Source: Amia ocellicauda (taxonomy: Eukaryota; Chordata; Actinopteri; Amiiformes; Amiidae). From it: a stretch of DNA of 64,000 nucleotides. This document shows, piece by piece, positions 34,744-63,483 of the stretch. The notes beneath the pieces were generated by a model that saw nothing but the letters and a program-made list of their open reading frames with translations, was not told the origin of the DNA and ran no database searches. The DNA is taken from positions 29,810,707 to 29,874,706 of the forward strand of contig NC_089852.1 in the NCBI RefSeq assembly GCF_036373705.1. Direction: 5' to 3'. Numbering within the stretch: position 1 is the stretch's first letter; the number at the start of each line of letters is the position of its first letter. The translations under genes and the position numbers were made by a program.

Positions 34744-37700
34744 ATGGGCACGGAAACCGAGGGGCACAGCCCGAGCCCCGCTGGGGACAATGCCAGTGTC
34801 AGTATCAGCACCATCGGGGACAATGTCTGTGTGAGTATCTAAACCATCAACCGTCTCCTCTACTCTAATCTAAAACATAATGCGCAGTGTGGGCATGTCT
34901 GGTCTTAATTTGTGTTGATTTGAAACAAAGCTACAAGTCTTTAATAGAAACAAACAAACAAATAAATAGAATCCCAAAATATGACATATGTCGTTTAATA
35001 CTAGATCATTTAACATGACTCATCTCTGTTCGACTTCTTACTGTAACACTTCACAATCACCCCCTAATTGGTGATGTAATCTCTGGGTTACAGTATGTTA
35101 CAAGTAAAAACTAGAAACCTGGTCTGTTTTATTCAGTATTTATTCAAAGCAAGTCCAGACAGTTAAAAGAAGTTAGAAGAAGTTAGGAAGACTGTTGAGC
35201 GTATTTCTCTTCTAGGTTCTCTTCTAAGTCATTGCAGAGTCTAGGGCAGAACAGTAAGATATTAATGAGTAAGAACTTCAACCAAAACTGAAAATACCAA
35301 CAACAACAACAACAACTAAACATAAATACATAAGTTGATCGTTTTATATGTTAGTGAATAACTGGCCTGTCTGTGTAGCACTATGAAACTGACCACACTG
35401 TGTTAGAGGGGTTTGTTTTGTGTTTCTCTGTTCAGGGAATACTTACTGTTAATCAATGACATACTTACAGTGAGCATCCGTCTGAAAGTTTGGGGAGACC
35501 GAAAATCCGATACAGCTGAGACCATCATTCTGCAGAGGCTTAACTATAGCGGAGGGATGGAATGACACCACATCCATTATTAAAGTTCTCTGTAATGTAA
35601 TACACATTAACTGTAAAGCAAGAGCTTGTGTTACAAGATTTATGTATGTAACGTGTGTTATAAGCATGCAGTCTGTGCGAGGCAGCAACTGGGTTAATTT
35701 CCTCCTCAATGTAGTAAACTAGACAGGGCTGACCCTCACTCTCCATCTGCCTGCTTTTTCCCTTTCTTTTTCTGTCTGTCTGTGGAAATGGCATAGTGTA
35801 GCATGGTTTACAGGCTCCAGCAGCCATGTTGTTGAAACCTTCCTGACTGGCTTTGGGATTGCAGAGCTGGGTGACACTCCACTGGGTTTCAGGTGACCGA
35901 CGTGTCTGTGGAAGTGGCGACCGTGGATGCCAAGCTGTCAAAGGCCAGAGCACGGCGGAAGCACAGAAATGGGAAGAGGAAAGGGAAGAGGAGGCGCCGG
36001 TCGAAGAAGCGGAAGACCGTGTGGAACCTGCAGGCACTGGCCATCCTGCTGACCGTCACCGTGTTTGTGGTCGTGGTGATCATGTGGACCCTGCTATGGC
36101 TGTTCATCTGTGAGCGAGGGAGCAAGGGAGGAGGGAGGGAGAGGGAGAGCAGGGGACAGGGAGCATGCTGAGGGTGTCATGTTCTGGCAGCTCTACCAAC
36201 AGTCCAAGGAACTGTGTTGTTGGTTAAATGGTAAAAATAATAATCACAAGACACAAGATACTTCAAATGCTTGTTAACATTATTGGTATTGGATTGCATG
36301 AAAAACTGATTCAGACCTATACATTTGTTTTCCACTGGAGGGCGGAGTTGTTTGACTTCTCTGAGGGCCTTTTTATTCTCTCAGCTGGTGGGGCCGTGCT
36401 GTCCTTATCACACCAAGTAAACTGTGTACTCACAATCATCCATTTCTTCTCAGTCCCTGCTAGTAATGATGGTTGGGGATGTGAAAGTGCAGTAGTATAG
36501 CTGAGCACCTCAGGGATGAATAAACACAGCCCAGAAAATGTGTGTGTGTAGCTCGTTCGTAACAATTGATGTACGTGTTTCAGTATAGTCACTCTACTAT
36601 AGAACTATACTATAGAGGCAGGTGTCTCCTGCATCCTGTGACCGATGCTTCTCTTACAGTTCAGAGGGAGAGTAACAACGGGGTATATTTTGCTGGAATG
36701 TTCCGTATCGCCAACTTTGAGTTCATCCCAGAGTACAGACACACCGACTCCACCGAATTCCTCTCCATGGCCACCAAAATTGCGAATGTGGTGAGTTTAT
36801 ATTTTACTGTGAGTTTCTGGAGTCATTTTGTAGGGGCTTGTTTAAAGAAGATTGATACTTTTCTTTAAACTAGATTTATTTTTCAGTTCTACTTCTATTA
36901 CTACTACTTCTACTGATCAGGATCTAGTACATATTACGCTCTATGAAATAAGTGAATAACTTCAAATGCTTTTTCCGTGTTTTTTGTTTTTCAAAGTTGT
37001 CTTTGCAGCAGACAGCAGGGAACAGACAAAACAAACCCCCAACTTCATCTGTGACCACCTAGATTGATATACCAAACTCATCCTTTTTCTTTTGTAGGTG
37101 AATGATGTATATAGAAAGTCCCCAGTCTCCAAACTGTACCAGCAGTCTGTCATATCAGACATCAGGTAACGCAGCTTTCACTTAAACAAGTCTCTTCTCC
37201 ACAGTGTGGTGAAACCTGTCAGGTGGAAGCGTGTGGTGTTACACAAATTCACAGATGTGTGTCTTGCTTTGCAGTACCAACAATAAGGGGGGTCTCCTGG
37301 TCCATTTCTGGATGGTGTTCGTGGTGACCAGCATGAACAGCCATTCGCTGTGTGAGGAGTGTGTGGGTGCCATTCTCCGAGACTCGGTCCACACCAGCCT
37401 GCTGAACCGCAGCTCTGTGGGCTTCCTGCTCAGCCTGCCCGTGGACATCGACTCCATCGTGGTCAACGGTGACTAAGAGTGCGGAGATGCAGAGTGTGCT
37501 GTGGGCATTGATATGAGTGAAGGAGCTTGTCAGAGTCTCCTGTGCGATTCAGTTACACTGTTGACACCATGCCGGTGCTTTCTCAGCTCAGCTCCCAGCT
37601 GTTGGTTAGAAGAGAATCTTCAGAGGCCAAAAGACAAACCTGTCAGCCAGTGAGAAATATGTATTGAACAGCAGATGTAAAGAATTAAAAACTAAATACA

Positions 37701-61600: not shown

Positions 61601-63483
61601 CACTGAACACAAGGTTACAGATATCATATCTATAGAGACAGATGGTCTGTACCTCTCTGTAACTTGACTCGAAATGACACAAGAAACTTAAAAAAAGTTG
61701 TGTTCTGCTGTAGGAACCTCAATTACACAAAAAAGATATCTGTCCTCAAGGCACTGGGTTTAACAGATATTCCCAACAAAAGAGTATCTCATTTCTGGGA
61801 CCTTCAAACTGCATGATTAACCTACTGCAGTCAGCCTGCAAATGGATATCAATGCAGATCTGTCAGCGCTCTTCTCATTATTTATGTTGGAGAATTATTT
61901 AAAATCTAGCCCTGCCAGCGTACCTGTGTTTGCATGGTAAGGAAGCAGACCTTTGGCCTTCAGCCTATTCCAGCCTATGGAGTCATAGAAATTATAGAAA
62001 TACTTTAGCCATACTGGCACACTAATTGACTTCAGGTTAGCTCCCAAAGAACAAAGCAAAATTGTATTATATTGGTTTATAGAACTGCTTTTTTTGCGGG
62101 GGGGCACAGCAAGTCAGCCCTGTGCGGGAAAGTGCAGCCCTGCGGAGTTCAGCAGGTTACTCCGATAAACATCAGGCTCGTCCAGGAAAGGCCGGCTAGG
62201 CTGACAAAGGCACGCTGTTCTCGTTGCGCTCCCTGCTGCGCTGTTCACAGTATTGTAATTTTCATCATGCAGGCTTGGCTGAGACACACCTTTGCAGGGC
62301 CCCGAACAATAGCTCTTCTGTGCAGCACAATAATGGAAGTCAGAACCCAATCCTCTGGGCTTCTGAGCCCTAATTGTTTGTGATCGTAAACACTGAAAAA
62401 ACAAATTAGCCAGTATTCTCTGCCTTAACTGTGTATTGGACGAGTTTAAACTTCTTCTGAAAAAACCTATCTGGGTAAAGGTTAAACAGCACAGCAGTGT
62501 TTACGGGGAAAAAGAAGCAGCCCACCGAAGACAGGTGGGAGCTCCACGCTATGTGTTTCTGAGGGTAGTGGGCTGCTGATGTGGTGAGGAAGGTGGCAGG
62601 TCGGTCAGCAGCTCTGTGTTTCTGTTGCCTCCTGCAGGCTGCGGGCGGCGGGGGGAGCAGGAGAGCCGTGTGGTAGGGGGACAGGATGCCCAGCACGGGG
62701 AGTGGCCCTGGCAGGCCAGTCTACACTTCCTGCAAAAACATGTTTGCGGGGCGACAATCATTGGGCCGCGATGGCTGCTGTCTGCTGCACACTGCTTCCA
62801 GGACCCCACACAGCGCAGGTGAGCCTGTGGCCGTGTCTGTCTGCGTGTGTCACAGGGTGTCTGTCTGCGTGTGTCACAGGGTGTCAGTCTGTCTGTCTGT
62901 CTGTGCCACAGGGTATCCAGTGCATGGCTGTGGACAGCGGTGGTGGGCACAGTCAGCAGACAGGCCGGTGGCCCAGGCTCCGTCTTGCATGTGGTCCGGC
63001 GCATTATAACCCATGAGCAGTACAACATGGAGACGCTGGACTCTGACCTGGCCCTGCTGGAGTTGGAGAGGCCGCTGGAGTTCAGCAGCAGTGTGCAGCC
63101 CGTGTGTCTGCCTCCCCGCTCACACAGCATCCCTGCAGGCCAGCCCTGCTTCGTCACTGGCTGGGGTCTGCTGCAGGAAGATGGTGAGAGTGATCCCTCC
63201 ATGTGATTGTTATTTTTTCCCTCATTGGGAAAGACAGGCATTAACTGAAGCTGATGCTAACAGTCTTGTCAATGTGGCCCTGACCCTGGGGCAGCAGAGA
63301 GGGCAGCTTTGTGGCACCTCTGATGTGCGGTGCCATCTGTCCCCAGGTGTGCTGCCCCTAGTGCTGCAGAAGGGGCAGGTGCAAGTGATCGCGCAGGCTG
63401 AGTGCTCCAGGTACCTGGGCGGCTCCGTGACGGTGAATATGCTCTGTGCAGGACAGCTGCAGGGGGGCGTGGATGCCTGCCAG
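58613..63483 (+). CDS. Matriptase-like gene B: SEA-CUB-LDLa-trypsin type II membrane protease, 3' end beyond window
   Basis: Twelve exons seen: 58613-58687, 58988-59228, 59530-59657, 59902-59969, 60084-60190, 60377-60415, 60720-60906, 61112-61251, 61332-61448, 62638-62818, 62912-63183, 63347-63483. These encode 564 residues in consistent phase. The last exon, with the active-site Ser, must lie past 64,000, so the full length should be near 617. A membrane helix spans about 83-105. SEA follows, with an intact self-cleavage motif (Gly173|Ser174 in SEGSVIAH). Then come one CUB (about 220-328), one LDLa with six Cys (330-367) and the trypsin domain. Activation is predicted at Arg378|VVGG; His419 and Asp473 (DSDLALLEL) are present, and VDACQ predicts Arg/Lys specificity. 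A second CUB and further LDLa exons are absent. ST14 has the same SEGSVIA motif. Confidence 0.88.
58884..58909. repeat. (GAGT)n microsatellite in intron 1 of gene B
   Basis: Six GAGT units between exons 1 and 2. Confidence 0.9.
59334..59398. repeat. (ATT)n-(AAT)n palindromic microsatellite
   Basis: About eleven ATT units turn directly into about nine AAT units, making an almost perfect inverted repeat able to form a hairpin. Intron 2 of gene B. Confidence 0.95.
60279..60327. repeat. (TTA)n-(TAG)n compound microsatellite
   Basis: Two adjoining trinucleotide arrays in intron 5 of gene B. Confidence 0.9.
61449..62637 (+). other. Intron 9 of gene B, without hidden exons
   Basis: This 1.19-kb intron is where further LDLa exons would be expected by comparison with the two upstream genes. 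I see no cysteine-rich exon with matching 1-1 phase. Confidence 0.6.
62834..62911 (+). repeat. Imperfect tandem repeat with acceptor-like units before exon 11 of gene B
   Basis: Units of the type CTGTCTGCGTGTGTCACAGGG repeat, followed by CTGTCTGT runs. CACAG|G occurs after 62,855 and after 62,879 as well as at the true acceptor after 62,911. Confidence 0.85.

Follow-up and report, generated by a model that had tools for sequence, protein, structure and literature searches.

A head-to-tail row of three matriptase-family protease genes at the TMPRSS7 locus of Amia ocellicauda: TMPRSS7 and, probably, two members of an old lineage sister to ST14

A stretch of 64,000 nucleotides (nt) of the genome of the fish Amia ocellicauda (NC_089852.1, positions 29810707-29874706; hereafter, the window) carries three membrane serine protease genes of the matriptase family, which follow one another in the same orientation along the + strand. 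The first, c1, is the orthologue of TMPRSS7, while the sequences of the two that follow, c2 and c3, indicate that they probably belong to an ancient branch of the matriptases whose sister is ST14. Lower-case c1, c2 and c3 designate the three protease genes, and capital C1, C3, C6, C18, C20 and C28 designate contigs of the same genome (988 Mb in 385 contigs), the window being part of the 57.4-Mb contig C3. The gene models were built exon by exon from motif scans and splice-site scoring and are full except at their 5' ends; of the human sequences used for comparison, TMPRSS6 (residues 68-802) and the protease domain of ST14 were checked against the PDB. The models comprise the following features.

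34744-44119, + strand: c1, TMPRSS7 orthologue, 18 exons, the first one uncertain (gene model, Pfam, identity, trees)
34744-34797 and 35893-36109, + strand: c1 first exon (guessed; donor -1.1) and transmembrane (TM) exon
36660-36790/37098-37165/37275-37468 and 37783-37812, + strand: c1 SEA exons (the 68-nt one entered in phase 0, left in phase 2) and small exon
38235-38463/38872-39002 and 39131-39243/39358-39464/40473-40609, + strand: c1 CUB1 and CUB2 exons
40890-40997/41190-41291/41555-41671, + strand: c1 LDLa exons
42393-42564/42840-43108/43411-43547/43958-44119, + strand: c1 protease exons
46801-55398, + strand: c2, matriptase-type protease, 18 exons (gene model, Pfam)
46801-46895, + strand: c2 TM exon, 5' end provisional
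47037-47161/48319-48386/49471-49661 and 49771-49863, + strand: c2 SEA exons (the 68-nt one ending in VTAF(S)) and small exon
50090-50309/50443-50585 and 50666-50763/50887-50996/51241-51374, + strand: c2 CUB1 and CUB2 exons
51611-51715/51882-51989/52113-52223/52473-52592, + strand: c2 LDLa exons
52782-52965/53633-53904/54364-54500/55240-55398, + strand: c2 protease exons
52782-55398, + strand: c2 protease domain, with activation site SK↓IVGG, SAAHC, DYDIALL, GGVDACQ and GDSGGP; residue 99 is Ser
59081-65182 (in the window, 59081-63483), + strand: c3, matriptase-type protease with a short stem, 12 exons, the last one beyond the window (gene model, Pfam)
59081-59228, + strand: c3 TM exon, 5' end provisional
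59530-59657/59902-59969/60084-60271 and 60377-60415, + strand: c3 SEA exons and small exon
60720-60906/61112-61251 and 61332-61448, + strand: c3 CUB1 exons and single LDLa exon
61252-61331, + strand: 80-nt c3 intron between the second CUB1 exon and the LDLa exon
62638-62818/62912-63183/63347-63483 and, past the window, 65021-65182, + strand: c3 protease exons, the last holding GDSGGP and the stop

The introns of the modelled exons are GT-AG and all modelled exons are open: no internal stop occurs in the coding frame of c1, c2 or c3, against means of 29.2, 31.3 and 17.9 expected from shuffles, and against 27 and 29, 29 and 32, and 20 and 22 stops in their respective other two forward frames. 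The GC fraction at third codon positions is 0.691-0.728 in the models and 0.425-0.438 in the introns. A 68-nt SEA exon (37098-37165 in c1, 48319-48386 in c2, 59902-59969 in c3) and a 137-nt penultimate exon (43411-43547, 54364-54500 and 63347-63483, respectively) are common to the three genes, and the entry and exit phases of their shared exons are identical, apart from the TM-exon entry of c2 and c3, where the models are provisional. It should be noted that this identity is partly built into the models, because a few weak splice sites (c1 LDLa1 donor, -2.1; c3 SEA3 donor, -1.0; acceptor of the c2 68-nt exon, -1.7) among mostly well-scoring ones were accepted for keeping the frame. The three intact, diversified genes on one strand that the first-pass annotation had described at the TMPRSS7 locus are borne out by exon-by-exon models and domains, as are the two shared exon lengths and the open frames; the third gene is indeed intact, but is not wholly contained in the window. 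A version of c3 without the exon of the catalytic Ser was dropped, that exon having been found just past the window. The same fate met an assembly misjoin, which the first-pass annotation had named as a possible undoing of the row: the window is free of N, the row lies inside a 57.4-Mb contig, and no misjoin is visible. A motif scan of C3 29874000-29903970, which short exons could escape, detected no fourth protease past the last exon of c3.

All three products have the stem typical of the matriptase subfamily (SEA, CUB and LDLa ahead of a trypsin domain), and hydrophobic runs are read directly in their TM exons. In Pfam, c1 matches SEA, CUB (as one stretch), three LDLa and Trypsin, and c2 matches SEA, two CUB, four LDLa and Trypsin, with all four families above cut-off in both; for c3, searched with its 11 in-window exons, Trypsin and SEA are above cut-off, and LDLa (22.3 vs 24.1 bits) and CUB (19.1 vs 21.4 bits) are below it. 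The basic activation site, the catalytic triad and Asp189 are found in all three, in c3 with the last exon included.

The identification of c1 as TMPRSS7 is straightforward, since c1 shares 63% identity with human TMPRSS7 in the protease domain and 50% in the stem, and the two pair with 100/100 support in every full-length tree. The first-pass annotation had gone further and taken the shared exon lengths and phases as evidence that c2 and c3 were tandem copies of TMPRSS7 made in this lineage. The phases do agree, but equal exon lengths cannot date the row, because the 137-nt exon is also present in both ST14 genes (see below) and in TMPRSS6 of the same genome; the SEA2 exon is 71 nt long in the two ST14 genes, compared with 68 nt in c1, c2 and c3. 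Moreover, a clade of c1, c2 and c3 without human TMPRSS7 was rejected in four of four tree runs (p 1e-9 with c3 incomplete, 2e-5, 9e-13 and 5e-95, the last one, from a nine-row tree, being so extreme as to be readable only as a strong rejection). The c1 and c2 proteins are about 35% identical overall, and the protease domains of c1, c2 and c3 are 51-55% identical (52-54% with c3 incomplete). The comparison of the copies at the DNA level returned nine matches of 33-123 nt, all nine in protease exons with an overhang of at most 6 nt, and no similarity between introns. The head-to-tail order would suit a duplication of TMPRSS7 within this fish lineage, but under these trees this origin can practically be discarded.

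A different possibility is that c2, whose domain plan is the same as that of ST14, is the fish ST14 orthologue relocated next to TMPRSS7, with c3 as a copy of c2. However, searching the whole genome with the protease domain of c2 revealed two additional genes (C1:58.4741-58.4820 Mb and C18:30.3997-30.4051 Mb), for which human ST14 was the best query in 13 of 13 clusters above 25 bits on C1 and in seven of eight on C18, the exception being the last C18 exon (c3 83, TMPRSS9 82, ST14 78). Both models show four LDLa exons and the 137-nt penultimate exon. A whole-genome search with the SEA domain was too weak (6 matches), because the domain is divided over exons. Human, C1 and C18 ST14 form a group without c2, with support of 97/97, 100/99 in the nine-row tree and 99/98 with c3 left out, the closest pair within it not being firm (human and C1, 80/84 and 75/78); joining c2 to C1 ST14 (p 0.0014) or to C18 ST14 (p 0.0025) was rejected in the nine-row run, and the stem of c2 is 32-33% identical to those of the ST14s, which are 44-46% identical among themselves. 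With c2 outside the ST14 group and two closer ST14 genes in the genome, c2 as ST14 itself was dropped as a candidate, and the transposed-orthologue account is highly improbable; in its ordinary form it is already refuted, and it could be saved only if c2 were an ST14 that has evolved at an unusual speed. The exclusion of c3 is less firm because of its long branch: c3 falls outside the 100/99 ST14 group and its union with C18 ST14 has p 0.039, while it stands beside human ST14 when the C1 and C18 genes are left out of the tree (58/70 full length, 87/92 protease domain).

The two ST14 genes (C1, 58.474-58.482 Mb; C18, 30.400-30.405 Mb) are anciently diverged, with 44% stem identity. They may correspond to zebrafish st14a and st14b, which are called Matriptase1 paralogues in PMC12173237.

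The position of c2 and c3 next to ST14 is supported by the full-length trees, where c2, c3 and the ST14s group at 94/96 (91/95 in the best nine-row tree), and c2 and the ST14s at 97/96 once the long-branch c3 is removed. These values have to be weighed against the idea that c2 and c3 are TMPRSS7 tandem duplicates predating the fish-tetrapod split, whose matriptase-like features converged or were kept. The location of both genes directly beside TMPRSS7 and their common exon plan are in line with such an origin, and the protease domains of c1 and c2 (52-54% identity) are no less similar than those of c2 and ST14 (48-53%). In addition, a clade of c1, TMPRSS7, c2 and c3 was not rejected (p 0.202, 0.125 and 0.090, the last compared with a best tree that separates them at 91/95), nor was one of c1, TMPRSS7 and c2 (p 0.091, 0.078 and 0.070). 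On the other hand, besides the 97/96 grouping, the stem of c2 has more in common with human ST14 (37%, score 757) than with human TMPRSS7 (31%, 507) or c1 (34%, 516), and the length of the 60-loop and the four LDLa of c2 point the same way.

Other observations also weigh against a sister relationship to ST14. With human rows alone, c2, c3 and ST14 group at only 65/82, and without TMPRSS6 the branching among them is not resolved. Trees of the protease domain, as proposed in the first-pass annotation, were run, but they do not place c2 and do not resolve the wider family. The sisterhood of c2 and c3 is weak (72/71, and 62/44 in the nine-row run), and c3 has a long branch and an unusual composition; a tree with incomplete c3 had paired it with TMPRSS6 (61/57), an arrangement disfavoured (p 0.039) by the later tree including the C1 and C18 ST14s. 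Matriptase comes out as the top PDB match for c1 as well as for c2 and c3, with no TMPRSS7 among the matches listed, and therefore the best match cannot discriminate. Taking all this into account, we regard the old TMPRSS7 duplication as unlikely, and descent of c2 and c3 from a matriptase lineage sister to ST14 as probable.

Three sequence signatures bear on this assignment. The distance in the alignment from the Cys of the His box to the next conserved Trp, which reflects the 60-loop, measures 14 residues in c2, c3, human ST14 and C1 ST14, 13 in C18 ST14, and 11 in c1, TMPRSS7 and human TMPRSS6. The string VTAFSEG of the SEA domain is common to c2, c3 and human ST14. Finally, GGVD(A/S)C precedes the active-site Ser in c2, c3 and all three ST14s, where TMPRSS6, TMPRSS7 and c1 have G(K/E)(R/K)DAC. 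By these features c2 and c3 look matriptase-like, although none is fully exclusive: VTAFSEG is not intact in C1 ST14 (HAFSEG) or C18 ST14 (SAFSEG), and GG(V/I)D is present also in hepsin and enteropeptidase (GGID), so that the GGVD string may be ancestral.

As for predicted action, the triad and Asp189 suggest that c1, c2 and c3 are trypsin-like zymogens, and by analogy with matriptase each would be a type II membrane protein. The activation cut would fall after Lys in c2 (SK↓IVGG) and after Arg in c1 and c3 (R↓VVGG), and the active enzymes would cleave pericellular substrates after Arg or Lys, as expected from Asp189. Residue 99, which shapes the P2 pocket in matriptase, is aligned as Phe in human ST14, C1 ST14, TMPRSS7 and c1, as Tyr in C18 ST14, as Ser in c2 and as Leu in c3; therefore, the substrate preferences of c2 and c3 are probably not those of ST14. 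At the self-cleavage site of the SEA domain, c3 and human ST14 read GSVIA and C18 ST14 reads GSLIA, and the Ser of this string is absent from c2 (GGLRV), c1 (GGLLV) and C1 ST14 (GVIA). Because of this absence c2 should not self-cleave in its SEA domain, and c3, keeping GSVIA, would act on a shortened stem.

The stem of c3 is indeed short. Its 80-nt intron stands where c1 has CUB2 and LDLa1-2, and c2 has CUB2 and LDLa1-3; six exons that c2 has there are absent, and the frame is kept because the flanking introns are in phase 1. Instead of the two CUB and four LDLa of ST14, c3 has one weak CUB and one weak LDLa. Together with the long branch and the weak donor at 60271, this could be taken to mean that c3 is decaying or functionally altered, but its 588 codons plus stop are free of internal stops, its third-position GC is 0.694, and its triad is complete with exon 65021-65182, and decay or altered function is judged very unlikely. 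The weak SEA3 donor at 60271 reads GTCAAT (-1.0) and is followed by an ATT/AGT microsatellite.

Tandem repeats lie directly ahead of the SPb exon in both c2 (53549-53616, 10 nt x 6.8) and c3 (62833-62891, 24 nt x 2.5, duplicating acceptor-like CACAGG sites). Two tandem duplications were noticed in c1, one of 33 nt at 34783-34848, covering the last part and the donor of the guessed first exon, and one of 32 nt at 42310-42373.

The remaining features of the window are the following.

27684-29744, + strand: TAGLN3, conserved neighbour; four exon matches (67-89% identity) in tblastn with human TAGLN3
18088-18269, + strand: exon with apparent likeness to ABHD10; this 60-amino-acid piece had no Pfam family match
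57065-58192, + strand: Tc1/mariner (Sleeping Beauty-type) transposase open reading frame (ORF), 376 codons open, with Pfam Sleeping Beauty and Tc3-type helix-turn-helix domains and DDE_3

The transposase ORF sits between c2 and c3 and is no member of the protease row; a relative, divided over two ORFs, is found upstream of the window (C3:29805851 on). A VEGFR-1-like immunoglobulin exon lies on the + strand, about 17.6 kb past c3, and elsewhere, at C20:14.6-15.6 Mb, trypsin-like exon matches are densely clustered. Rfam gave no match at gathering scores.

TAGLN3 lies upstream of c1 on the same strand and the ABHD10-like exon further upstream, in agreement with the human gene order ABHD10-TAGLN3-TMPRSS7. 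When the TAGLN3 of the window was used as a query, matches were obtained at two loci of the genome, its own and C1 59.5088-59.5100 Mb, where a TAGLN-family gene (4 exon matches, 68-71%) is 1.03 Mb from C1 ST14. In human, TAGLN and ST14 are both on 11q23-24, and TAGLN3 and TMPRSS7 on 3q13. These positions, and the TAGLN-family gene near C1 ST14, suggest that C1 and C3 derive from a single block with a TAGLN-type gene and matriptase-type genes, although a single neighbour family in common is slender support for a block duplication. In PMC6170504, the synteny of TAGLN3, TMPRSS7 and C3orf52 close to GUCA1C extends over at least six taxa, one of them the spotted gar, in which GUCA1C is on LG3 with TAGLN3 and TMPRSS7 in its vicinity.

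The ancestral block would date from the time of the early-vertebrate genome duplications or from before it. One descendant (here C3) would have retained TAGLN3 and TMPRSS7 together with the c2/c3 lineage, and the other (here C1) a TAGLN-family gene and ST14; the human genome would have kept TMPRSS7 and ST14, and to our knowledge contains no c2 or c3. The age of the lineage, its link with genome duplication and its loss in mammals are what we infer from this picture. The complete scenario, in which c2 and c3 form a third lineage of matriptases that arose as the sister of ST14 by genome duplication, stayed beside TMPRSS7 and was lost toward mammals, is tentative, and in our estimate falls somewhat short of an even chance. 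If it were true, TMPRSS7 and ST14 would both go back to a single TAGLN-matriptase cluster that existed before the duplications.

Members of the matriptase family control iron balance and epithelial barriers. A further ancient lineage in a fish would mean that carrying a fish "matriptase" annotation over one-to-one to human ST14 can be wrong, and such genes in fish are probably already auto-annotated as ST14-like. If c3 is a viable matriptase, it is a natural experiment on which stem domains are needed, CUB2 and three LDLa being gone with frame and triad intact. More generally, c2 and c3 may help retell the origin of this protease family. No account of this row was found in open-access full texts, a search that left subscription journals and genome annotations mostly outside, and the accessible parts of PMC8291973 and PMC2865498 contain nothing on it.

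Among known systems, TMPRSS9 (polyserase-1), with its short LDLa-protease plan, is slightly like c3, but c3 has a CUB and a single protease domain, and C28 carries a TMPRSS9-like gene with at least two protease domains. TMPRSS6 (matriptase-2), whose orthologue is on C6, belongs to the same subfamily, and the 137-nt SPc exon fits it as well. TMPRSS7 (matriptase-3) is matched by c1 in its three LDLa, in protease and stem identity and in the TAGLN3 neighbour, whereas c2 and c3, although in the same row, lack its short 60-loop and its G(K/E)RDAC string. Matriptase (ST14) differs from c2 and c3 at residue 99, from c2 in the SEA cleavage serine, and from c3 in CUB2 and three LDLa; on the other hand, c2 has its TM-SEA-CUB-CUB-LDLa x4-protease plan, and both c2 and c3 share with it the long 60-loop, VTAFSEG (as in the human protein), GGVD(A/S)C, Asp189 and the basic activation site.

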